From the NCBI RefSeq assembly GCF_039822205.1, contig NZ_JBAGBW010000031.1:1-16500 (forward strand): a stretch of 16,500 nt of DNA, read 5' to 3'. Source of the stretch: Thermodesulfobium sp. 4217-1 (lineage in GTDB: Bacteria > Thermodesulfobiota > Thermodesulfobiia > Thermodesulfobiales > Thermodesulfobiaceae). Below are positions 221 through 15,299 of the stretch, one piece after another; the stretch's first letter is position 1; each line of letters begins with the position of its first letter. The translations under genes and the position numbers were made by a program. The notes under the pieces are model-generated. The model did not search any database. It had not been told where the DNA came from and saw only the letters and a program-made list of their open reading frames with translations.

Positions 221-236
221 GAGGGGAATTAAAATC
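221..236 (+). promoter_or_regulatory. Ribosome binding site implying an AUC (or AUU) start codon
   Basis: GAGGGG at 221-226 is the best ribosome binding site upstream of the helicase gene. In the helicase frame it is followed by ATT (228), AAA and ATC (234), with no ATG, GTG or TTG before 300. Spacing favours ATC at 234. AUU and AUC are rare but known bacterial initiators; infC, which uses AUU, is the classic autoregulated case. Confidence 0.5.
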
Positions 237-3200
237 AATACAGACTTAACCTTTATTACAAACGAAAATGGGCAAAGTTTACTTGAGCGCTTTAAGGTAT
301 TGATAAAGGACGCTGAGTCCTTTGACTGCCTGGTTGGATATTTTTATACGAGTGGATTTTATAATCTCTATGAAGCCTTTGAGAACACAAAAAGAATTAG
401 AATTTTAGTTGGGATTGGCACAGATAAAATAACTCATGATCTTATTCAATTTCAATATCAAACCTCCTATCATCAGATAAGAGAGCTATATTCAGATAGG
501 GTGAAAGAAGAGATAGAGAGCTCAGAAAATAAATATGAAGTAGAAAATGGAATTGAACTTTTTAAAAAGTGGCTTAAATCTGGAAAAATTCAGATCAGAG
601 CCTATCCAGAAAGAAATTTACACGCGAAACTATACATAATGAGCTTTTCTGAAGATGACAGGGATACAGGGCGCGTCATAACAGGTTCAAGCAATTTCAG
701 CCAATCCGGCCTGATTAATAATTTAGAATTCAACGTCGAGCTAAAAAATGTTAGCGATTACAAGTTTGCCAAAGAAAAGTTTGAAGAACTTTGGGAAAAC
801 TCCGTTGAAGTAAGTGAAGACTATATCACAACCGTAGAGCAAAAGACATGGCTAAGAAGTGACATATCCCCTTATGAATTATTTTTAAAATTTTTATACG
901 AATACTTCAAGCGCGATTTGGAAGAGTCAGGCGAGCTATACAATTTAGAGCTTCCAGATGAATTTTTACACCTTGAATATCAAAAGCAGGCTGTCATAAA
1001 CGCAAGGCGTATCGTGGAAGAATACGGAGGGGTCTTCCTGTCTGACGTTGTGGGGCTTGGCAAAACCTATATGGCGGCAATGCTTGCCTCACAGCTTGAT
1101 GGCAGAACTCTTATATTAGCCTCTCCTGTTCTAATAGATCCCGAAAATCCTGGCTCATGGGTAAACGTGTTCAGAGAATTTAACTTAAAATTCGAAGCAG
1201 AATCTATTGGGCAATTAAAAAGGATAAAGGAAAGATTCAACCTTGATAAGTACAAAAATGTCATAATAGACGAGTCTCACAGGTTCAGAACTGAAGACAC
1301 AGTCTCTTATACCCTTCTTTCTGAAATATGTCGTGGCAAAAGGGTAATATTGGTTAGTGCAACTCCATATAACAATTCTCCAAAGGATATCCTGTCTCAG
1401 ATAAAACTATTTCAAAATCCACGAAAGAGCACAATACCAGGCATATCAGATTTAGAGGGTTTCTTTAACAATCTGGAAAAAAATTTAAAAAGTATAGACA
1501 AAAAGGAAGACCCAGAAGAGTACATCGAAGCAGTTAAGGAAAACGCATATCTCATAAGAGAAAAAGTTTTAAAATATCTTATGATAAGGCGAACAAGAAG
1601 CGAGATAGAAAGATATTTTTCTAAAGACTTAGAGAAAAATAAATTAAAATTCCCTCAGGTAAACGATCCAATAGCTCTATTTTATGAGTTAAATGACAAA
1701 GAAAACGAAATTTTTGACATAACCATAAAATTAATAACAAAAAAAATTCGCTATGCAAGGTACACCCCACTTCTTTACTTGAAATCAAAAGATCTCTCGA
1801 CCATAGAAAAATATGGACAGCTAAATATGGGTACATTTATGAAAGTGCTGCTTGTAAAGAGACTGGAGAGCTCTTTTTATGCATTTCGACTAACGATAGA
1901 TCGCTTTATAGATGTCTATAAAAAATTTATAGATGAATTTGATAGAGGAAATGTATATATTAGCAAAAAGTATACCAATAAAATATTTGAATATATAGAA
2001 AATGACGATGACAAAGCTATTCAAAAGCTAATAGAAGAAGATAAGGCCGAAAAATATTCAAGCGATGAGTTTGAAGAAAAATTTAAAGAAGATCTAAAAA
2101 ATGATTTCGATACTTTTTGCAGGATAAAAGAGATATGGGAAAAGGTTAATAGAGATCCAAAGCTTGAAAAGCTCCTTGAACAATTAAATACAAATAAAAT
2201 TTTGAAGGATAAGAAATTAATAATTTTTAGCGAATCAAAAGATACAGTAAATTATATTTCAAAAGAGATTAAAAAAAATCTTAATAAAAAAGTGCTGGTA
2301 TTCAGCAGCTCATCAAGCAATAATACAAAAAACATCGTTATAGAGAACTTCGATGCCAAAGCGAAGAATAAAAGAGACGACTACAATATACTCATTTCTA
2401 CTGAAGTGTTGTCTGAAGGCGTGAACCTACATAGGTCAAACGTGATCATAAACTATGATATCCCATGGAACCCCACAAGGATGATGCAGCGAGCAGGCAG
2501 AATAAACAGAGTTGATACGAAATTTGATGAACTATATGTTTTTAATTTCTTCCCCACCCAACAGTCAAACGATCAGATTAACCTCAAAGAAATAGCACAG
2601 GCCAAAATTGATGCCTTTCTCACACTACTTGGTGAAGATGCAGCAGTGCTAACTGAGGGTGAACCAATAGGCTCACATGAACTATTTGGAAGATTGACTT
2701 CAAAAAATACAATTACTGGAGAAAGCGATTTAGACAATAGCGAATTAAAATACTTTAGACTTCTTCAAGATATCAGGGAAAACAATCCAGATCTGTTCCA
2801 AAAAATTAAATACCTGCCAAAAAAGGCAAGAAGTGCGAAGGTTAATAAAGAAAACACTGGTTTGCTCACTTTTTTCAGAAAAGGCAAATTGATGAAATTT
2901 TATTTATCAAATCGTGAATCCACATTAGAACTTGATTTTTTAACGGCTGCGAAAATACTAGAAAGTATTCCTGAAGAGAAAATCATAAAACTTCCACTTG
3001 AGAGCTATTACGAACTGCTTGATAAGAATAAAACTGCATTTTTTAATGCCACAATTGATGAGATAATAGAAATCCGTTCTAAGAAAGGTAGAGATAGTTC
3101 AACACAACTTCTTAAAATCCTTAAAGCAACACAAAAAAATGGCAGGCAATTAACCGAAGACCAGGAAGAATATCTAAAAAAAGTAATAAACCGTCTTGAA

Positions 3201-3416
3201 GAGGGCTCATTACCGAAAAAGACAGTTCAGAAAACCCTTAAAGCATTAAATGAACTTAAGAAAGACATTCAAAATCCATTAAAAGTTATCGGGATACTAC
3301 AAAGGGAGATCTCACCTACCTTTCTTAAAAGTCATTATGCAGAGACTTCTGCTATAACAGAAGGAAAAAGGGAAGTTATTTTATCACTTTATTTAACTGG
3401 GGAAAGCAATGGATAG
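234..3416 (+). CDS. PLD-nuclease domain / SNF2-family DNA helicase (restriction-type translocase subunit)
   Basis: A protein of about 1060 residues, probably an ATP-driven DNA translocase with an attached nuclease domain. Residues 1 to about 190 form a phospholipase-D-like domain, with HAK (H130, K132) and GSSNFS near 151, a single HxK set as in PLD nucleases that work as dimers. The SNF2 motor follows: Walker A GLGKT 274-278, DESH 346-349, SATP 375-378. The C-terminal helicase half has STEVLSEGVNL near 722 and the motif VI region MMQRAGRINRVD from 750. The first canonical start, TTG at 300, would remove conserved-looking sequence (TFITNENGQSLLERF). The frame is open to 213. GAGGGG at 221-226 sits 7 bases before ATC at 234, so I place the start there; ATT at 228 is the alternative. 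The stop overlaps the methyltransferase gene by 8 bp. Helicase and PLD family are clear; the role in restriction is inferred from context. Confidence 0.9.
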   Translation: MNTDLTFITNENGQSLLERFKVLIKDAESFDCLVGYFYTSGFYNLYEAFENTKRIRILVGIGTDKITHDLIQFQYQTSYHQIRELYSDRVKEEIESSENKYEVENGIELFKKWLKSGKIQIRAYPERNLHAKLYIMSFSEDDRDTGRVITGSSNFSQSGLINNLEFNVELKNVSDYKFAKEKFEELWENSVEVSEDYITTVEQKTWLRSDISPYELFLKFLYEYFKRDLEESGELYNLELPDEFLHLEYQKQAVINARRIVEEYGGVFLSDVVGLGKTYMAAMLASQLDGRTLILASPVLIDPENPGSWVNVFREFNLKFEAESIGQLKRIKERFNLDKYKNVIIDESHRFRTEDTVSYTLLSEICRGKRVILVSATPYNNSPKDILSQIKLFQNPRKSTIPGISDLEGFFNNLEKNLKSIDKKEDPEEYIEAVKENAYLIREKVLKYLMIRRTRSEIERYFSKDLEKNKLKFPQVNDPIALFYELNDKENEIFDITIKLITKKIRYARYTPLLYLKSKDLSTIEKYGQLNMGTFMKVLLVKRLESSFYAFRLTIDRFIDVYKKFIDEFDRGNVYISKKYTNKIFEYIENDDDKAIQKLIEEDKAEKYSSDEFEEKFKEDLKNDFDTFCRIKEIWEKVNRDPKLEKLLEQLNTNKILKDKKLIIFSESKDTVNYISKEIKKNLNKKVLVFSSSSSNNTKNIVIENFDAKAKNKRDDYNILISTEVLSEGVNLHRSNVIINYDIPWNPTRMMQRAGRINRVDTKFDELYVFNFFPTQQSNDQINLKEIAQAKIDAFLTLLGEDAAVLTEGEPIGSHELFGRLTSKNTITGESDLDNSELKYFRLLQDIRENNPDLFQKIKYLPKKARSAKVNKENTGLLTFFRKGKLMKFYLSNRESTLELDFLTAAKILESIPEEKIIKLPLESYYELLDKNKTAFFNATIDEIIEIRSKKGRDSSTQLLKILKATQKNGRQLTEDQEEYLKKVINRLEEGSLPKKTVQKTLKALNELKKDIQNPLKVIGILQREISPTFLKSHYAETSAITEGKREVILSLYLTGESNG

Positions 3417-6400
3417 AGAACACGCAAGAAATCTAATAATTGAAACCTTTGAAAATTCTTTTAATGAAAATAATTTTAAAAAATTCATTTCCAATCTATT
3501 CAAGAGCTACGATAGGACTAAAGCCCTTCAGCCAAGATATGGGACACAGGGCATTACCGAAAGATACCTTGGTTTCATTAGCTCCTGGGAAAGAATTGGC
3601 CGTTATGAGGATAGTGATGGCAAAAAAATTGATATATTGATAATAAAACTAAAAAAAGGGCAATCTCTTTCCAGAGCAAGAACCGCTCAGAGAAACTTTG
3701 TCGCCGATTATTTAAAAGGAAAGCTTGGAACAACTACAGAAAAAGATGCAGCTCTTATTGCCTTTGTCCCACCCGATTCCAATGAGTACGATTGGCGATT
3801 TTCTTTGGTAAAATTGGACTATCGTTTTGAGGGGAATAAACCAAAAGAAGAATTTACTTCTGCTAAAAGATGGTCCTTTTTAGTCGGTAAAAATGAAAAA
3901 AGTCATACTGCCCAAAGCAGATTTTTACCCATAATTGAAAATGATGAATTTCAACCCACGCTTGAAGATTTAGAAAAAGCTTTTGATGTTGAAGTTGTAA
4001 CAAAGGAATTTTTTGAAGCTTACAAATATGCTCTCAGAGAGATCATTATTAAGTCCCTTTCTAAGTTTAACCTTCCCTATGAAAAGAAGCATTCATTTTC
4101 TCAGTTGTTATTATCAAGGATTATGTTTTTATACTTCTTACAGAGAAAGGGATGGCTCAAATGGAAAGATTACGTTCAGGATAAAAATTACATAAAAAAT
4201 CTATGGCTAGAATATAAAAATTGGCGTGAAAAGAAAAAAGCGAAAAATCTCTTCTACTCTGAGTGGCTATCCAGCCTTTTCTTTGGAGCTTTTAACAAGA
4301 AAAATCATCTGTTTCATCCAAACTTGCCAGAAGATATTAAAGAATCTTTTAGCATTATGCCTTTTTTAAATGGTGGTCTTTTTTCTCGCACACAACTGGA
4401 TGAACTTAACTTTGACCTTCCTGATGATGTGTTTGAATGGTTGTTTGAACCAGACTTCTCTGACCTAAAAAAAGGCTTTCTTGAAACATTCAATTTTACC
4501 ATTGACGAGTCTCTACCGGTGGATGTGGAAGTTGCTGTTGACCCTGAAATGCTCGGTAAGGTTTATGAATCATTGATTGCGGAGGAAGAAAGGGGAGGAG
4601 CAGGTATATTCTATACTCCAAGGGTAGAGATTGACTTTATATGTAGAACGTCCCTTGTGGAATACATCTCTAATGAAACAACAATCCAAAAACAAAAAAT
4701 AATTGACTTTGTTTTTAATCCTCATGAAAGCATCGTTAATTTATCAAATGATGAAGCAAGAGAGATAAAGAAGAAACTTGATGAAGTAAAAGTTGTTGAT
4801 CCAGCCGTTGGTTCTGCTTCTTTTCTTGTCGGTATGATGAATACTCTGGTTGCAATTCACCAGGAATTAACCAGAAAACTTGAAGACAAAGAAGAGAATC
4901 TATTTACCTTAAAGCAGAAAATAATCCTTGAAAATCTTTATGGTGTTGATGTCAAAGATTGGGCAGTTATGGTTGGAGAGCTTCGGCTCTGGTTTTCTCT
5001 AATTATAGAAACCGATGAAAAATATATGGACATCTACACAAAACCACTTTTGCCAAATCTTTCATTCAAAATCCGTCAGGGCGACTCCCTTATTCAGGAA
5101 ATTGCCGGTGTTCATATAAATCTTAAAATCGAAATCAAAATGTTGAACATTCCAAAGCAAATCAAAGATAAAATAACAGAACTAATTAAAAGAAAATCTA
5201 CATTCTTCTCTGGTTTAAGAAGCGCTGACCTTAAAGAAATCAAAGAAATTGAAAAACAGGAACAGGATATATTCAAAGAGATTATTGAGATGAAAATTAA
5301 CGAAGTATATAAAGACAGATCATATCTTGAAACCCAAATTGCAAACTTAAAATCTACGAAGAAACTTTTTGGAGAAGGAAGAACCAAAAAAGAGCAAGAT
5401 GAAATTAAAAAACTTGAAGAAAAACTGGAAGGAATTAATTCCGCATTTAATAAATACAAATCACTTTTAGAAACAATAGGGAGCAAAACACAAAAAGATT
5501 ATTTCCTCTGGGGACTTGACTTTATTGAGGTCTTTTCTCAAAAAGGTGGCTTTGACATCGTGATTGGCAATCCACCTTATGTTAGGCAGGAACTTATAGC
5601 TCCACCCCTTGAAAATAAAAATAATTACACAGACGATAAGTGGCGTGAAATTAAAAGAGAATACAAAGAAAAACTTATTCAATCAGTAAAAAACACATTG
5701 GATGTTCCAATAAAAATTGACAGAAAAAGCGATCTATATGTGTATTTTTACTATCAGGGATTATCACTTTTAAAACCCGGTGGAATTTTTACCTTTATTA
5801 ACTCAAATTCCTGGCTTGATGTTGGCTATGGAGCAGGACTTCAGGAGTTTTTGCTTAAAAATATGAAACCAGTTTTTGCTTTTGATAACTTGAAAAAGAG
5901 GTCTTTCAAACAGGCAGATGTAAATACAGTTATTGTAGTAATTCAGAAACCAGAACAAAAACTTGATGATTACACAATAAAATTTGTTGCCTTCAAAAAG
6001 CCCTTTGAAGAGGTAAACAATGCAGAAGTTGTAAAGAAAATCTATAACGCAAGCCAGCCCATTTTTGACGATGAAGATTTCAGAATATATCCAAAAACTA
6101 AAAAAGAACTTTTGATTGAAGGAGTTGAGATACCAGAGGAAGAGTCAGGATTGTTAAAATTTGAACCAGAACATCTTCCTTACATTGGCAATAAATGGGG
6201 TGGAAAATATTTGAGAGCACCGGAGATTTATTTTAAGATTTTGGAGAAAGGAAAAGGTAAATTGGTGAGGTTGGGCGATATTGCGGAAGTAAAAGCAGGT
6301 ATTATTACTGGTAATAATGCGAAATATTATCGTCCAAAATTGAAAGAGTTTAATAAAAATGAACATTCTTTAGTATTCAAAAGTCCTCGTGAAGTCAACA

Positions 6401-6963
6401 AAATATTTCTTACAGAGAATGATGCAGTTTCAATTATAAAAGTAAAAAATGTACCTTTTGAAATTAGGAAAGCACCTTTACTTTGGGTTGACCTAAGAGG
6501 TGATAAACATATTTGTCACTTTAATAAAGATAATCTCCCATTTGAACATAATTTTTATGGAATTTTTGGGAAAAATATTGAAAATAAAACAGTGTGTTTA
6601 TTTTTAAATTCCACTTTAGTTTGGTTTTTTATAGAAGTTTTAGGTCGTAAAGGTTTGGGAGGTGGTGCAATTAGGATGGTAAGAATTGATCTCTTACAAC
6701 TTCCATGTTTAAAGAGTCTTCATTTGGATTTTGATAAGTTTCAAGGATTTGTTAATCGTGAAATAAAATCTGTTTTCACCGAGCTTGGTTTTGACCCAAA
6801 CAAGCCCATTCGTGAGCAGGAGCCAAATCCATTGCCCGACAGAAAAGCCCTTGATGACATCATTTTTGATGCCCTTGGCTTGACAGAAGAAGAACGAAAA
6901 GAGGTCTACTGGGCAGTCGCCGAACTCGTAAAAACAAGACTAGAAAAAGCAAAGAGTGTGTGA
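3409..6963 (+). CDS. Eco57I-type N6-adenine DNA methyltransferase with C-terminal target-recognition domain
   Basis: A 1184-residue protein that should transfer a methyl group from SAM to adenine N6 in DNA. Motif I is DPAVGSASFL (464-473) and motif IV is NPPY (721-724), the gamma-type order. Between them lies a long charged, probably coiled-coil insertion (about 590-690), as in Eco57I and PglX-like enzymes. From about 951 (LVRLGDIAEVKAGIITG) it resembles a type I S-subunit/TaqI-type target-recognition domain, so specificity is carried in the same chain. The N-terminal 180 residues contain GRYEDSDGKKIDILIIKLKK, placed where type IIG enzymes carry a nuclease, but the usual acidic residue of an E-x-K motif is not evident. 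It overlaps the helicase gene by 8 bp and is followed after 3 bp by the DUF3800 gene. No separate S subunit or endonuclease gene is present. PglX of BREX is an alternative relative, but no other BREX gene is seen. Confidence 0.9.
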   Translation: MDREHARNLIIETFENSFNENNFKKFISNLFKSYDRTKALQPRYGTQGITERYLGFISSWERIGRYEDSDGKKIDILIIKLKKGQSLSRARTAQRNFVADYLKGKLGTTTEKDAALIAFVPPDSNEYDWRFSLVKLDYRFEGNKPKEEFTSAKRWSFLVGKNEKSHTAQSRFLPIIENDEFQPTLEDLEKAFDVEVVTKEFFEAYKYALREIIIKSLSKFNLPYEKKHSFSQLLLSRIMFLYFLQRKGWLKWKDYVQDKNYIKNLWLEYKNWREKKKAKNLFYSEWLSSLFFGAFNKKNHLFHPNLPEDIKESFSIMPFLNGGLFSRTQLDELNFDLPDDVFEWLFEPDFSDLKKGFLETFNFTIDESLPVDVEVAVDPEMLGKVYESLIAEEERGGAGIFYTPRVEIDFICRTSLVEYISNETTIQKQKIIDFVFNPHESIVNLSNDEAREIKKKLDEVKVVDPAVGSASFLVGMMNTLVAIHQELTRKLEDKEENLFTLKQKIILENLYGVDVKDWAVMVGELRLWFSLIIETDEKYMDIYTKPLLPNLSFKIRQGDSLIQEIAGVHINLKIEIKMLNIPKQIKDKITELIKRKSTFFSGLRSADLKEIKEIEKQEQDIFKEIIEMKINEVYKDRSYLETQIANLKSTKKLFGEGRTKKEQDEIKKLEEKLEGINSAFNKYKSLLETIGSKTQKDYFLWGLDFIEVFSQKGGFDIVIGNPPYVRQELIAPPLENKNNYTDDKWREIKREYKEKLIQSVKNTLDVPIKIDRKSDLYVYFYYQGLSLLKPGGIFTFINSNSWLDVGYGAGLQEFLLKNMKPVFAFDNLKKRSFKQADVNTVIVVIQKPEQKLDDYTIKFVAFKKPFEEVNNAEVVKKIYNASQPIFDDEDFRIYPKTKKELLIEGVEIPEEESGLLKFEPEHLPYIGNKWGGKYLRAPEIYFKILEKGKGKLVRLGDIAEVKAGIITGNNAKYYRPKLKEFNKNEHSLVFKSPREVNKIFLTENDAVSIIKVKNVPFEIRKAPLLWVDLRGDKHICHFNKDNLPFEHNFYGIFGKNIENKTVCLFLNSTLVWFFIEVLGRKGLGGGAIRMVRIDLLQLPCLKSLHLDFDKFQGFVNREIKSVFTELGFDPNKPIREQEPNPLPDRKALDDIIFDALGLTEEERKEVYWAVAELVKTRLEKAKSV

Positions 6964-6966
6964 TGG

Positions 6967-7818
6967 ATGAAAGGTTTTAATGATATTTTAGATATATATA
7001 CAGATGAGAGTGCAAGTAAAAGTCAGAGATTTAGATCAATCTGTGCCATTAGTGGATTGAGCAATAATTTAGAAAAATTAAAAGAAGAACTAAAAAGTAA
7101 GATAAATTTGTATGGGTTATCTGAACTAAAGTTTGCCGAAGTTAGAACTCATCAACCAAGGGTAAATTGTGCAAAAGATTTTATTTCTGTAGCAGTTGAT
7201 TACGCTTCAAGAAGAGAGATAAGAATAGGTGTGATTATATGGGATTTACATGATAGTCGCCATTCAATTCAAGGCAGAGATGACAGGGAAAACTTAGAAA
7301 GAATGTATTTTCATTTGTTAAGGAATATTGTAGAGAGATGGAAAAGATTTAATTGTAGATTCTACCCAGATGAACATTCTAAATACAATTACAAAAAAAT
7401 TGTTGATTATCTTAGTAAAACAAAATATCCGAGAGAGGAACCTTATATCTTGGAACTTTTTAGAAAGGAAAGACGTCAGTTTAACTTCATTGATGTAAAG
7501 GAACAAAAATCAGAAGAACAGGTTTTAATTCAATTAGCTGATTTATTTGCTGGAATTGCTTGTTTTTCAAGGGAAAATGCAAACAATTTTAAAAGCTATA
7601 AAAAGAAAAAAGAAGATGAAACAGAGGATATCGGAAAAACTTTTAAAAATAGATTTGAACTTATTGAACTTATAAAAAAAGAATGTGAAGAATGCAAAAT
7701 AAAAATCAGCTTAAATACCTGTGATTTCCTTAAAACATTTAAACCTTCTCAACCTATAAACTTTTGGCATTATGAACCACAAGGAGAATATGACAAAGCA
7801 CCAACAAGAAAAAAATAA
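6967..7818 (+). CDS. DUF3800 domain-containing protein
   Basis: A 283-residue protein with the hallmarks of DUF3800: an N-terminal strand ending in an acidic pair (IYTDESA, 11-16, D13/E14), WDLHD (92-96), PDEHSKY (134-140) and the C-terminal helix QLADLFAG (189-196). The conserved acidic residues suggest a metal-dependent nuclease-like fold, but no activity is established for the family to my knowledge. No signal peptide or membrane segment is seen. It starts 3 bp after the methyltransferase stop and its end is overlapped by the next gene, so it is probably translationally coupled within the operon. DUF3800 genes are frequent beside restriction and other mobile defence genes, so I infer an accessory or effector role here. 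Confidence 0.85.
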   Translation: MKGFNDILDIYTDESASKSQRFRSICAISGLSNNLEKLKEELKSKINLYGLSELKFAEVRTHQPRVNCAKDFISVAVDYASRREIRIGVIIWDLHDSRHSIQGRDDRENLERMYFHLLRNIVERWKRFNCRFYPDEHSKYNYKKIVDYLSKTKYPREEPYILELFRKERRQFNFIDVKEQKSEEQVLIQLADLFAGIACFSRENANNFKSYKKKKEDETEDIGKTFKNRFELIELIKKECEECKIKISLNTCDFLKTFKPSQPINFWHYEPQGEYDKAPTRKK

Positions 7819-8542
7819 AAATTTAAATCTGAACCAACTTGGCAACCGCTGGCTTGAATTGAAAAAACAGCGGATGCAGAACCTTTTGAAAATTGCCTTG
7901 CCAGATGAAGCACTTTACAGAGAAATTATGCTCTCCCTTGGATATCCCAATAATAAGGTGAATTTCTTAGAGCTTGCACTCATTACTCCTTATGCTGATA
8001 TAAGGAAATTAAAGGAAAGGCAAATTATAGAGAAAGCCCTTTTATACAGGGCAGGATTTACAGATGATAAAGAAGGATTATCAGAGGATTTTGATTTTTC
8101 TTTGAAGATAGATAAATCCGTCTGGAACTATAAAGGCATAAGACCAGCAAACTTTCCTGAGAAAAGAATTAAAGGAATATCAATTCTACTATCGCAGACA
8201 ATTGAAAAAGGAATAGTAAATTTCTTTTTAGAGCGTATTAAAGCGGAGATAAATAATAGAGACCCAAAAGATGCAGTAAAGAAAATAATGAATTTCGGCG
8301 GGATTGGACTTCAAAGAAAAGTGGAGATGTTTTTCAATATAATAATGCCTTTCTTTATGGTTTATTCGGACGGCGATGAAATCATAAATTTTCTGAATTT
8401 CATTTTTCAAAAACATCCACCATTAAGTGAAAACAAACTTATTAAATCTTTCAAACTCAACCATCCAGATATTAAGATTGAGAATTTTAGAACATATATG
8501 GGTGCTATACTGCTTCAAAAAAAGGAACTCTTCAACGATTAA
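7790..8542 (+). CDS. DUF2851 family protein, C-terminal half only
   Basis: About 250 residues. The string LPDEALYREIMLSLGYPNN (37-55), then FLELA, then GIRPANFPEKRIKGI (116-130) and a GGIGLQRK.EMFFNIIMPF segment (about 175-193) match, from memory, the second half of DUF2851 proteins (usual length around 400 or more). The N-terminal half is absent, and its place is taken by the end of the DUF3800 gene. I choose ATG 7790 over the in-frame ATG 7772 because AAGGAG (7781-7786) lies just upstream, though only 3 bases away. This gives a 29-bp overlap with the DUF3800 gene. Function is unknown. It may be a truncated leftover or a protein that now works with DUF3800; its intact frame and coupling favour expression. 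Confidence 0.7.
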   Translation: MTKHQQEKNKNLNLNQLGNRWLELKKQRMQNLLKIALPDEALYREIMLSLGYPNNKVNFLELALITPYADIRKLKERQIIEKALLYRAGFTDDKEGLSEDFDFSLKIDKSVWNYKGIRPANFPEKRIKGISILLSQTIEKGIVNFFLERIKAEINNRDPKDAVKKIMNFGGIGLQRKVEMFFNIIMPFFMVYSDGDEIINFLNFIFQKHPPLSENKLIKSFKLNHPDIKIENFRTYMGAILLQKKELFND

Positions 8543-8648: not shown

Positions 8649-9119
8649 GTATTACTTGAAGCCCAATTCGACCACCTGGTTTAAAAGCTTTATAATTTAA
8701 CAGACGAAGAGATTAAAACAATAGAAGGTTACTACCAAGACGGATTATTCAACGGACATGGGGTGTTAAAATGGCCTAGTGGACTAGTTTACTAAGGCGA
8801 ATGGAAAAATGGAATTCGTGAAGGGCATGGCATACTTAAAAACGCTTCAGGAGAAGTAATCTATGATGGTCTCTGGAAAGACGACAAACCGCTTCAAACT
8901 TCAAATCAGCAAGGGAGCACAGCCTCTGAAAAAGTTAAAAAGGTGCTAGACATTCCCTGGGGAGCAAGTAAGGGCGAAGCAAAGCAGATCATGAAACAGC
9001 GTCCAAATACAAATTATGTTAACACTGAAAAGAGAGCTAATAATACAGTCAGACAGAAATATATAGATCAGTTCAACAATAACCAGGCAGAATTCCTTTT
9101 AGATTTAAAGCCTCTTTAA
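8649..9119 (+). pseudogene. Type IIG-like enzyme C-terminal remnant fused to a MORN-repeat gene, with two in-frame stops
   Basis: One frame runs through the whole stretch and is interrupted by TAA at 8682 and TAA at 8793. Before about 8729 it reads VLLEAQFDHLV-stop-KLYNLTDEEIKTIEG, like the C-terminus of Eco57I/type IIG methyltransferases (typically 'ldrlVYeLYgLteeEi.iveg'). It then reads GYYQDGLFNGHGVLKWPSG, GEWKNGIREGHGILKNASG and YDGLWKDDKP, which are MORN repeats. An IPWGASKGEAKQIM tail follows, ending at TAA 9117-9119. The first stop replaces an expected Tyr codon and the second an expected Glu (Y-E-G-E-W, GAA to TAA), each a single base change. No start codon or ribosome binding site was identified. 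The gene is decayed; how the two parts became joined is unclear. Confidence 0.75.
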
Positions 9120-11964: not shown

Positions 11965-13379
11965 TTATTTCGTGTCATCTTCATCTAAAAAATCAATCAG
12001 ATTTGGCACAGCTCCTAATTTACCTGTTTTATAAAAATTATAATATGAATTTTTTTTTCGTATCTCCTTAAAATCAGAAAGAGAAAACAGATCAGTAGAA
12101 CCATCTGTCTTTTTCTCAGTAAACCATATAATATCCTTTCTGATTAAGTCTTTATTCATAAGCAATTCTCTGTTGTGAGTGGTGCCTATTAATTGAAAAT
12201 TGTGTTTTCTGCTCATCTTTAAAAAGGTTAAAATAGAATGTTCTATTAAGTCTGGATGCAGCGATCTGTCTATCTCATCAATTACAAAAATTTTACTTTC
12301 ATTTTTGCTTTCAGAAAGTGCCTTTAATAGAATATTCATTAAAACGTAATATCTTTTTATTCCGCTGGACTCATCATCGAAGGGTAAGCTAAAATTCTCT
12401 TTATAAGAGTGATGTAATATAGTTTTAAAAGGCGTAAGATTAAATCCGATATCAGTTTGATCTTGTAAATCTATATCTTGTGTCATATTTTGATCTTCAA
12501 AAAATATATCATTTTCTGTTTCTTGCATTTTTTTGCTTTTTTGTACTATATCTACATCAGTTAAACTAAAATCGGCTATTTTTAATAAATTCACAAGTTT
12601 ATTTTTAGGTATTTTACCATTAAAAATATTTTCAGATATAAAATCTAAAGTGAGAAATTCTTCAAATATGCCCATCAACTTCTCATCTGATAAAATAGAT
12701 GGGTCCAAATTAGAATTAGCAAAAAGTTTACTTTGAAATAATTGAAATAACATCCTGTAAGGAATAAAAAACTTATGTGGATCTATTGTTAGTTCAAGAT
12801 TAAACCAACTTCTAACTGACTTTAAAGTTTCAAACTCTATATTTGTTTTAAGATAACTTGCTATAACAGTATCGTTACATAATGTATTGGCACTCAAAGC
12901 ATCTTTGTCAGCCCTACTTATCTTCACCTTTGAACCAAATTTAATTTTAGATAATTCTTTCTCTTTGTCAGTAGCTCTCTCAAAAATCAAACTTTTTTTA
13001 GGAGAAAAAGAATATAGGGATTCTTTAACAATAAATTTTTTATTCAGTTGAATCTCATATAAATATCTTTCGTCACTTACAAACTCTATTGAAAAAAACT
13101 ATCTTTATCTTTATCAAGAGCAAATGGTTTTAAATTAAACTCAAAACTTTTGTTATTAAATGGCATTATGACAAGTTGTCGCAAAAAGGCAAGAGCTTCC
13201 ACTATGCTCGTCTTTCCAGATGCATTTGGCCCAAATATAAGAGCCATTTTTAATATTTTCGATTTTCCAATAGAACTAACGTAATATTCATCTAAATGAT
13301 CTGACCCAACTGGCTCAAATGATAGGTTAACTTTATCCCTAATAGATTTAAAGTTCTCAACAGAAAAATTTAATATCAT
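11965..13379 (-). pseudogene. RloA-like AAA15-family ATPase, split by a frame change
   Basis: The start is ATG 13379-13377 on the minus strand. The first 97 codons read MILNFSVENFKSIRDKV and Walker A GPNASGKTS (50-58), then end in SFFQ-TAG (13088-13086). A -1 shift within the T7 run (complement of 13092-13098) restores a frame reading SIEFVSDERYLYEIQL, which stays open to TAA at 11967-11965, for about 471 residues in all. The second part holds the signature-like ESSG, Walker B KIFVIDEIDRSLHPDL, the H-loop GTTHN and a C-terminal GKLGAVPNL. That end and the overall layout match RloA/AAA15 ATPases linked to restriction loci. No RloB partner gene follows; the convergent kinase gene lies 129 bp beyond. 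It is either a true pseudogene, a homopolymer error, or a gene read by frameshifting or polymerase slippage. Confidence 0.8.
13092..13098 (-). other. T7 slippery heptamer at the frame break
   Basis: On the coding (minus) strand the zero frame reads agT-TTT-TTT-CAA-TAG. T_TTT_TTT has the X_XXY_YYZ form of -1 frameshift sites, and a -1 slip enters exactly the frame that carries the rest of the ATPase. The zero-frame stop comes one codon later. I see no obvious downstream hairpin or upstream Shine-Dalgarno-like stimulator, so simple indel or sequencing error remains likely. Confidence 0.4.
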
Positions 13380-13416
13380 ATTATTTTTTCTCCCCTTTTT
13401 TACAACTTACTAACGT

Positions 13417-13561: not shown

Positions 13562-13590
13562 TTATTTAAAATTAGAGGTTGGGAGAAAAA

Positions 13591-14628
13591 ATGTTTAAAA
13601 AACTATCAATAGAAAATTTTAGAGGATTTAATAAATTCTCGATTGATGGTTTGTCGGATATAAATATTTTTACAGGAGCCAATGGCTGTGGTAAAACTTC
13701 TGTACTTGAAGCTGTATTTTTACTTTCATCTCAATCCCGTACATTACCAATTAATATAAATTCTCTACATCAATTTCGCACCAAGAATACTTATCTTATA
13801 GGTTTTTTCAGTCCGAGCCCATTTGAATACCTTTTTAAAGACATCACAAAACCCATCGTTATTAATTCCGAAGACACTACACTTGAAATAAAGCCTATTA
13901 CTTCTGAATTTTCTCAATTTTCCACAACAGCATCTCCTACTCTTACTGGAATTGATATTTTCCTTAATGGCGAGCATCAAGGCAAATATTCTTGGCATAA
14001 CAACATCATAAAAGATGAGCTTAGTGGAAAAGAAATTACTAATGAAATTACTAATGATTTTCAAAATATCCTTGTAACAACCTTTATATCGCCATATTTT
14101 TGTAATATCGAAGGATTTTATATTACGTTGTTAAGCAATATGATAAAAAATGGAAAACGTAATGAAATATTAAAATTATTTCAGATGTTTCATCCAGAAA
14201 TTAAAGATTTTACCTCACTAAGCGATAGAGGCACCCAAACAATTTTTGTTGATATTGGTACTGGAAGATATATACCCATTAGTCTTCTTGGAACAGGATT
14301 TCTTAATTTTATAGACACAATATTGCCTGTTTTTGCCCTTAAAAATTCAATAATTTTAATTGATGAAATAGAAGATGGCGTCTATTACTTGTATGTGCCA
14401 AAATTATTAAAAACGATTTTTGAAATTGCCAGAGAAAACAACAATCAATTGTTTATTACAACGCATTCAAAAGAGCTCTTGTTATCGATTGTTTCTGTAA
14501 TTCAAGATCTAAATAAAGAAGATAGTATAAGTTTTTTCAATATAAATTTTGCAGAAAATGTTGATGTAGATAGATATTCTATTGAAGATGTCAAAAATTT
14601 AATGGAAATTAACTTAGATATAAGATAA
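13591..14628 (+). CDS. AAA family ATPase (ABC/OLD-type) of a two-gene ATPase-TOPRIM pair
   Basis: A 345-residue SMC/ABC-like ATPase. Walker A is GANGCGKTS (29-37), preceded by the family's typical LSIENFRGF. A signature-like segment ISLLGTGF lies near 230, Walker B LIDEIEDG has D258/E259, and the H-loop TTHSKE has H292. Such proteins (AAA_21/OLD-like) dimerise around ATP and DNA and control a partner nuclease. ATG 13591 is chosen over the in-frame TTG 13579 because GGGAG (13581-13585) lies at the right distance. The stop overlaps the next start by one base (TAATG), indicating coupled translation and probably a protein complex. No membrane segments. It is distinct from the AAA15 protein encoded divergently: here the ATPase lacks any TOPRIM domain of its own, which is supplied by the neighbour. 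Confidence 0.88.
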   Translation: MFKKLSIENFRGFNKFSIDGLSDINIFTGANGCGKTSVLEAVFLLSSQSRTLPININSLHQFRTKNTYLIGFFSPSPFEYLFKDITKPIVINSEDTTLEIKPITSEFSQFSTTASPTLTGIDIFLNGEHQGKYSWHNNIIKDELSGKEITNEITNDFQNILVTTFISPYFCNIEGFYITLLSNMIKNGKRNEILKLFQMFHPEIKDFTSLSDRGTQTIFVDIGTGRYIPISLLGTGFLNFIDTILPVFALKNSIILIDEIEDGVYYLYVPKLLKTIFEIARENNNQLFITTHSKELLLSIVSVIQDLNKEDSISFFNINFAENVDVDRYSIEDVKNLMEINLDIR

Positions 14629-15299
14629 TGAGTTATAAATTTTATGACAATGATAAAGGCAACACAATTTTTAATGAGAAAAATCAAAAATGTATATTTC
14701 TCGCAGAAGGTTTATCAGAGGCGCTTTTTTTAGAAAAGTGGTTAAGCTCAGAAGAAGAATGGTCACAAAAATCTGAATTTATTTCTGTTATCTGCTTTCA
14801 AGGTGTTGACAAAATAAAAGCTACCCTTAAGAGAATTGAACAAAAAATTAGACAATGCCTTGGTGTAGGCTTTTTTCTAGATGCAGAAGATAAAAAAATC
14901 ACTGATAGATTAAAGCAAATCGAAGATGTATTAGAAATACATAAAATTATCGATACTGGAACAAACAAATTAAGAGCTGGAGAATTAAACCAAATTAGTG
15001 ATCGTAACTTATCATCAATAGCTATTTATATATCTCCAAACAACAAAGACAATGGTTGCATAGAAGATATTGTTGTTGAGGAAAACGAGATAAAAACATG
15101 GAAATGCATCGAATGTCTAAGGGAATCAAGCGAATATAATAACATCAACAAGTCTATAGTCCAAGCATATCTGGGATGCAAAAAGCCAGGCCTATGCGGC
15201 ACAGGTCGAGGTTTTGAAAGTGGTATTCTAGATGTTAATAGCTCAGTTTACAGTAAAATTACTGATCTTTTTTCAAAACTTTTAAGGAATTCTTGTTGA
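14628..15299 (+). CDS. DUF3226/TOPRIM-like protein, partner of the AAA ATPase
   Basis: A 223-residue protein with the layout of DUF3226-type TOPRIM domains: a glutamate at the end of strand 1 (FLAEGLSEALFLEKWL, E27), FQGVDKIKATL (57-67), an acidic cluster FFLDAEDK (D85, E87, D88) and PNN..NGCIEDIV (137-149). It ends with a QAYLG and FESGILD region typical of the family. The TOPRIM fold binds Mg2+ and cuts or joins DNA or RNA in OLD nucleases, topoisomerases and primases. Its start overlaps the ATPase stop (TAATG), so the two are co-expressed. I infer an ATPase-gated nuclease analogous to OLD, GajA or the AriA/AriB (PARIS) pair, but whether this subfamily cuts nucleic acid is not shown. Confidence 0.75.
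   Translation: MSYKFYDNDKGNTIFNEKNQKCIFLAEGLSEALFLEKWLSSEEEWSQKSEFISVICFQGVDKIKATLKRIEQKIRQCLGVGFFLDAEDKKITDRLKQIEDVLEIHKIIDTGTNKLRAGELNQISDRNLSSIAIYISPNNKDNGCIEDIVVEENEIKTWKCIECLRESSEYNNINKSIVQAYLGCKKPGLCGTGRGFESGILDVNSSVYSKITDLFSKLLRNSC

Follow-up and report, generated by a model that had tools for sequence, protein, structure and literature searches.

Several described restriction and defence systems each resemble in part an operon of Thermodesulfobium sp. 4217-1, which lies within positions 1 to 16,500 of contig NZ_JBAGBW010000031.1 (this whole stretch of 16,500 nucleotides is referred to as the window). In type ISP enzymes such as LlaGI and LlaBIII an SF2 motor, a methyltransferase (MTase) and a target recognition domain (TRD) act as one translocating enzyme, and PMC4666363 describes type ISP as one chain with an Mrr-family nuclease. 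The operon is alike in motor, MTase and TRD, but differs in having two ORFs with an 8-bp overlap instead of a single polypeptide, in having a PLD domain at the N-terminus of the motor instead of the Mrr-family nuclease, and in the addition of DUF2851h, a short, stand-alone C-terminal half of DUF2851, and a cargo gene. The CglI/NgoAVII type also combines a nuclease, a helicase-like ATPase and an MTase, and the PLD part of the operon matches Pfam RE_NgoFVII (1.1e-6). In CglI the nuclease and ATPase are separate proteins (PMC5737866), whereas in the operon they are fused and accompanied by a type IIG-like MTase.

With regard to class 1 DISARM (drmD-drmMI), the likeness is in the motor, which is DrmD-like (2.3e-35), and in the MTase, which is DrmMI-like; none of drmA, drmB and a separate drmC was found among the window ORFs searched, a search bounded by the left end of the window at base 1, or among the families present in at least three related loci. 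SauUSI is a modification-dependent enzyme that is not known to have a partner MTase, and is in this unlike the operon. Its PLD domain is fused to an SF2 ATPase (see also PMC7913695), and there the two are alike. The BREX-related (DUF499/Hma) loci have an N6-MTase and a helicase, the helicase of their type 2 bearing an HKD nuclease, and OLD and Schlafen are among the auxiliary effectors reported in them (PMC12839542). PglZ, BrxC and the DUF499 ATPase were all absent from the window ORFs and cargo genes searched. In the first-pass annotation, made from the sequence alone, BREX (no PglZ or BrxC) and DISARM (no DrmB or DUF1998) fit incompletely. In its logic the operon is closest to type ISP and CglI/NgoAVII, but it lacks what defines type ISP, DISARM, BREX and DUF499 systems.

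The features of the operon are as follows.

234 to 3416, forward strand: PLD nuclease and SNF2/SF2 motor protein (the helicase); start uncertain, ATT/ATC near 225-234 or TTG at 300.
2871 to 3413, forward strand: helicase C-terminal region, putative MTase-docking part, from the contrast in identity with loci L002 and L044.
3409 to 6963, forward strand: type A Eco57I-type N6-adenine MTase with its own TRD, from Pfam, PADLOC and motifs.
3409 to 3963, forward strand: MTase N-terminal domain, putative helicase-matching (docking) part, with two classes that track helicase class.
6290 to 6775, forward strand: TRD, swapped in Desulfurella acetivorans and the variable block of alignment A2.
6967 to 7818, forward strand: DUF3800 gene, the cargo here (PF12686, PADLOC PDC-M04A).
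7772 to 8542, forward strand: DUF2851h, half of DUF2851 as a gene of its own, with a predicted HhH-GPD-like fold; start at 7772 or at 7790.
8291 to 8353, forward strand: helix-hairpin-helix-like motif of DUF2851h, NFGGIGLQRKVEMFFNIIMPF, from alignments; in a combined profile it pairs with LPGVGRKTAN of Nth-type glycosylases.

The first-pass annotation was right on the four genes and on their coordinates, strand and couplings. The MTase start at 3409 precedes the end of the helicase ORF at 3416, giving the 8-bp overlap, the MTase stop at 6963 is followed after a 3-bp gap by the DUF3800 start at 6967, and the last gene overlaps DUF3800 (stop 7818) by 29 bp if it starts at ATG 7790, as the first-pass annotation has it, with ATG 7772 as an alternative. 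The helicase has no ATG, GTG or TTG before 300, but homologous protein sequence, including a conserved DLTFITNE shared with D. acetivorans (L002) and L022, extends upstream of 300 to about 234, so that a rare ATT/ATC near 225-234 is its probable start codon.

In the helicase chain the PLD motif HAK...GSSN and the motor motifs GLGKT, DESH and QRAGRINR are intact, as are DPAVGSASF and NPPY in the MTase, so that the motor, PLD HxK, SAM and NPPY motifs reported earlier are all present and the catalytic motifs undamaged. The helicase matches Pfam PLDc_2 (4e-9), Helicase_C (4e-21) and SNF2-rel_dom, and PADLOC C3a139 HKD+Snf2 (1.2e-47); the MTase matches Eco57I (8.6e-27), MmeI_Mtase and PADLOC REase_MTase_IIG (8.7e-115). 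The proposal of a translocating restriction-modification enzyme divided between two chains, one PLD-SNF2 and the other MTase-TRD, is supported. Likewise, the last gene is indeed half of DUF2851, with only positions 145-284 of the 375 in the PF11013 profile matched.

We favour, with fair confidence, the interpretation of the operon as a modular two-chain ATP-dependent restriction-modification system, to which DUF2851h adds a reader of DNA and the cargo gene a backup effector that can be exchanged. It starts from what is observed, namely the gene content, linkage, co-variation, exchange of cassettes and predicted fold. In such a system the MTase with its TRD would recognise a short site, and N6-adenine methylation would protect the host copy. 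At an unmodified site the MTase N-terminus may hold the helicase C-terminus, upon which the SNF2 motor would translocate or remodel and the PLD domain would cut. DUF2851h would act together with the MTase core as a DNA- or base-binding subunit, perhaps by helping to recognise the site or to flip a base, or by detecting modified bases of phages, and the gene between MTase and DUF2851h, here DUF3800, would be a plug-in second line of defence.

The modularity is seen in a series of close relatives. In D. acetivorans A63 (L002) the operon is at a different site from that in the window, and the two are 94% identical over 2861-6290, 91% over 6775-6965 and 93% over 7835-8522, with the TRD (6290-6775) and the cargo (6965-7835) replaced and the borders at the TRD and gene ends. 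Before 2861 the helicase is only about 60-70% identical to that of D. acetivorans, with a recombination junction at about 2861-2902. At the window's own locus in the congeners L044 and L043 the helicase is 98% and 84% identical respectively up to about 2900, but past that point the helicase C-terminus, MTase and cargo all differ and DUF2851h is absent; the downstream PepSY-response regulator-kinase and dam genes reappear after the differing part. Motor, MTase, TRD and cargo have thus each been exchanged separately.

The helicase C-terminal region is 96% identical to that of L002 although the motor is 62% identical, and 45% identical to that of L044 although the motor is 98% identical. The MTases linked to DUF2851h have a common core, 58-70% identical outside Desulfurella, and divide into two classes by their first 185 residues. 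The class I N-terminus is also found on type B MTases (about 50% identity, with the core only 36%) and pairs with class I helicases, while the class II N-terminus pairs with class II helicases (26-35%, with 10-20% in the C-terminus). This co-variation of N-terminal class and helicase class is most simply explained by docking of the helicase C-terminus on the MTase N-terminus. Helicases of either class accompany DUF2851h, but the only MTase core that it goes with is that of type A.

Scanning genomes with the MTase gave 13 loci, in a Nitrososphaeria archaeal MAG, Bacteroidia, Brevinematales, WOR-3, Aerophobetes, Thermodesulfobacteria and others. Where the contig is long enough the PLD-SNF2 helicase usually adjoins the MTase (L010 is an exception), and the short DUF2851 half is 3' of the MTase in 8 of the 13. 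Genome-wide, of the 12 genomes that have a type A MTase 9 also carry DUF2851h, the three in which it was not found (G008, G011 and G015) comprising a MAG with a contig end after the first cargo gene, a second MAG and a genome with a decayed copy. The background in three of four large phylum samples is about 1% of genomes (3/297, 1/296 and 1/349); in the fourth it is 15/147, of which 5 genomes have the short form and the remainder mostly the longer family form. In one phylum DUF2851h was present in all four genomes with a type A MTase and in none of 11 with other related MTases (Fisher p 7e-4, with the counts uncorrected for relatedness). Association of helicase, MTase and DUF2851h thus exceeds chance, and the earlier suggestion that DUF2851 is more than a chance neighbour stands when conserved neighbours are compared (9/12 genomes against background).

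In a maximum-likelihood tree all 13 MTases linked to DUF2851h are within one clade of 15 (support 98/99), which spans archaea and several bacterial phyla, and the two members without a linked DUF2851h are those of L007 and L010. A search from DUF2851h alone, blind to the MTase, led to the same operon in L019, L021, L022 and L024, and also to L025, in the L008/L025 genome, where the operon is split over contigs and the MTase contig is cut at its end. The contigs of L020 and L023 are too short for the neighbourhood to be judged; L020 has DUF2851h on its short contig with no related MTase in its genome at E 1e-30. Full-length DUF2851 (L029-L036, L038) has other surroundings, with neither helicase nor MTase. 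DUF2851h was absent from IMG/VR in a pattern scan and from plasmids at 1e-5, and scans of viral sequences likewise gave no full-length DUF2851. Many of the loci are MAG contigs, and several copies are decayed, with one stop in the TRD of L002 and frameshifts in L014 and L021.

One could see the locus as an ordinary defence island, in which a two-gene PLD-SNF2 and MTase restriction system does the work and DUF2851h and cargo travel with it in a mobile region with no joint function. The PLD-SNF2 and MTase pair is indeed of a general and widespread type: helicase and MTase pairs without DUF2851h are common (L043, L044, L068-L074, L076-L078), related pairs are also on plasmids (L065, L066), and the cargo is plainly exchangeable. 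However, DUF2851h has kept its place 3' of a single MTase clade in many phyla, whether or not cargo is present, and tracks the type of MTase core rather than helicase or site. The island interpretation is weakened by this, because hitch-hiking alone would not keep DUF2851h linked while the cargo changes, and we think it unlikely.

In the modular system that we favour, DUF3800 is one cargo among many, because the contents of the slot between MTase and DUF2851h vary between loci. DUF3800 was identified by PF12686 (4.7e-8, 34.3 bits, above the Pfam cut-off of 21) and by PADLOC PDC-M04A (1.8e-8). An RNase H-type nuclease fold has been reported for DUF3800 (PMC10910872) and the fold is taken from that report, as our own model, made without an alignment, has a pLDDT of 35. 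It is present in only 3 of about 20 related loci (the window, L005 and L010), and in L010 it is directly 3' of the MTase with no DUF2851h. Elsewhere the slot holds Schlafen AlbA_2 and HATPase (L002), OLD ATPase and the candidate defence genes PDC-M23A/B (L006), Lamassu LmuA/LmuB (L011), TIR-like, PIN-like, SMC and DUF1016_N genes (L024), DUF4258 (L009), a 165-aa protein (L013) or what was judged by eye to be a truncated OLD-ATPase-like remnant (L019), and it is empty in L003, L012 and L022. Loci cut by contig ends have class II pAgo and SIR2 (L025), a Dsr1-like TIR protein (L023), Schlafen and YhcG (L020) or SIR2 (L007).

The first-pass annotation had proposed a fixed four-gene system, which does not hold, as DUF3800 is not a conserved neighbour and the slot otherwise contains unrelated defence genes. 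The cargo slot, the predicted glycosylase-like fold of DUF2851h and the exchange as modules of helicase, putative docking ends, TRD and cargo had escaped that annotation. DUF3800 is cargo and not a fixed member, and its association as a fixed member is not beyond chance. A fixed role for it is rejected, as it is present in 3 of about 20 related loci. DUF3800-linked RNA motifs exist; the window had no Rfam match up to E 1.

The position of DUF2851h, 3' of the cargo in every locus that shows both, and the resemblance of a variable slot between two constant genes to effector exchange would also suit a gatekeeper or immunity-type regulator that restrains toxic cargo until the restriction-modification core is defeated. 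We give this little credence, as DUF2851h is present without cargo in L003, L012 and L022 and there is no part common to all cargo families.

DUF2851h matches PF11013 (2e-9), and an AlphaFold2 model of it has a pLDDT of 89.5 and pTM of 0.86. On structural comparison of the model ranks 1-46 were all HhH-GPD-fold proteins, the best being AGOG with a Z of 8.1 over 193 residues, a value that for a helical protein is borderline, at the edge of the range for unrelated folds. Foldseek with the model gave no PDB match below E 1, and a PDB sequence search with alignment A1 gave a chance match only. The profile of full-length DUF2851 scored 47.3 (P 8e-6) against the Nth/MutY proteins of the same genomes, the maximum for 100 column-shuffled profiles being 22.5, and the alignment is colinear across the RPxxFP..RI motif, the HhH motif and a C-x4-C-x2-C loop. 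The short form alone is not significant against the HhH-GPD profile (E 0.097), so the link is by way of full-length DUF2851. The short form keeps the HhH-like motif, without the cysteines, and R124, P125, P129, R132 and N189 are invariant and common to both forms. The catalytic Asp expected about 20 residues after the hairpin is not conserved in either short or full-length DUF2851 sequences. We predict that DUF2851h has a fold like that of the HhH-GPD DNA glycosylases (AGOG, Nth, OGG1), from which it differs in lacking the catalytic Asp and the FeS cysteines, and that it is probably a DNA- or base-binding, non-excising relative with a putative action on DNA.

Glycosylases are proven antiviral effectors (PMC11078745, PMC13160076), and with this precedent, the predicted fold and the invariant residues one might suppose that DUF2851h is itself an active glycosylase-type effector, excising or nicking at phage-specific modified bases in the manner of the Brig proteins, in a combined restriction-modification and glycosylase defence. 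That is improbable, as the GPD motif has no conserved catalytic Asp here. Brig1 and Brig3 have the uracil-DNA-glycosylase fold, unlike HhH-GPD, and a Brig1-like identity for DUF2851h is rejected on fold.

What is new here is the restriction of the DUF2851h partner to one MTase clade, the fold that it probably has and the slot with its exchangeable content, the last being a new case of a known theme, as auxiliary effectors within defence operons have been described for BREX (PMC12839542). A more specific version of our favoured reading is tentative, with somewhat less than an even chance in our judgement: DUF2851h would be a non-excising glycosylase-fold reader and obligate partner of one N6-adenine MTase clade, originating in a family whose full-length form has a nuclease-like N-terminal half, and the interval between MTase and DUF2851h would be a dedicated socket that exchanges whole defence systems (Lamassu, pAgo-SIR2, Schlafen, DUF3800) in the way that TRDs are exchanged. 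For DUF2851, a name present in a single paper of the literature searched, the analysis suggests a class in structure and function, and it separates a fixed core from exchangeable cargo within a restriction operon. In the series formed by the window, D. acetivorans and two congeners the motor, the recognition domain, the MTase core and the effector have been exchanged independently of one another, and with this series one can test how a single restriction engine is fitted with new specificities and backup effectors. Unknown defence genes may also be sought in the conserved socket.

In the N-terminal half of full-length DUF2851 we see, by eye only, a PD-(D/E)XK-like motif with invariant GPDF and ExH. 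The C-x4-C-x2-C loop of the full-length form resembles the iron-sulphur loop of Nth/MutY.

The target recognition domain (TRD) of the Desulfurella acetivorans A63 methyltransferase carries a single in-frame stop and is similar to TRDs from distant phyla (loci L003 and L006), and this similarity suggests that TRDs are exchanged over long range. In a Thermococcus profundus plasmid the related methyltransferase and helicase are set apart by other genes, an AbiEii-type nucleotidyltransferase gene among them, and thus cargo between the core genes is found in a distant archaeal version too.

L002 (D. acetivorans A63), 12800-13400: TRD region of the methyltransferase, with in-frame stop
L065 (T. profundus plasmid), 7865-18411: related methyltransferase and helicase, with intervening genes

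Further features lie in the window itself.

8688-8882: degraded remnant of a MORN-repeat gene
11965-13379, minus strand: broken AbiLi-like AAA ATPase gene (PADLOC AbiLi profile)
13579-15299, plus strand: AAA ATPase and DUF3226 pair

The MORN-repeat remnant has an open frame as its counterpart at the same locus of the congener G002 (L043, 8662-9141). A frameshift near 13086 splits the AbiLi-like gene, and the two resulting ORFs match consecutive segments of a single PADLOC AbiLi profile. The AAA ATPase and DUF3226 pair is similar to the candidate defence system PDC-M38A/B, and together with the AbiLi block it forms one insertion, missing between the kinase and dam genes in congeners G001 and G002.

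With regard to full-length DUF2851 (loci L029-L036 and L038), the N-terminal half has GPDF... and G[DN][IV]E[IVL]H motifs and looks PD-(D/E)XK-like; it is joined to a half that looks HhH-GPD-like, with an FeS-like cysteine loop. The genomic setting looks to be a housekeeping one, and the protein is possibly an undescribed DNA-repair enzyme.
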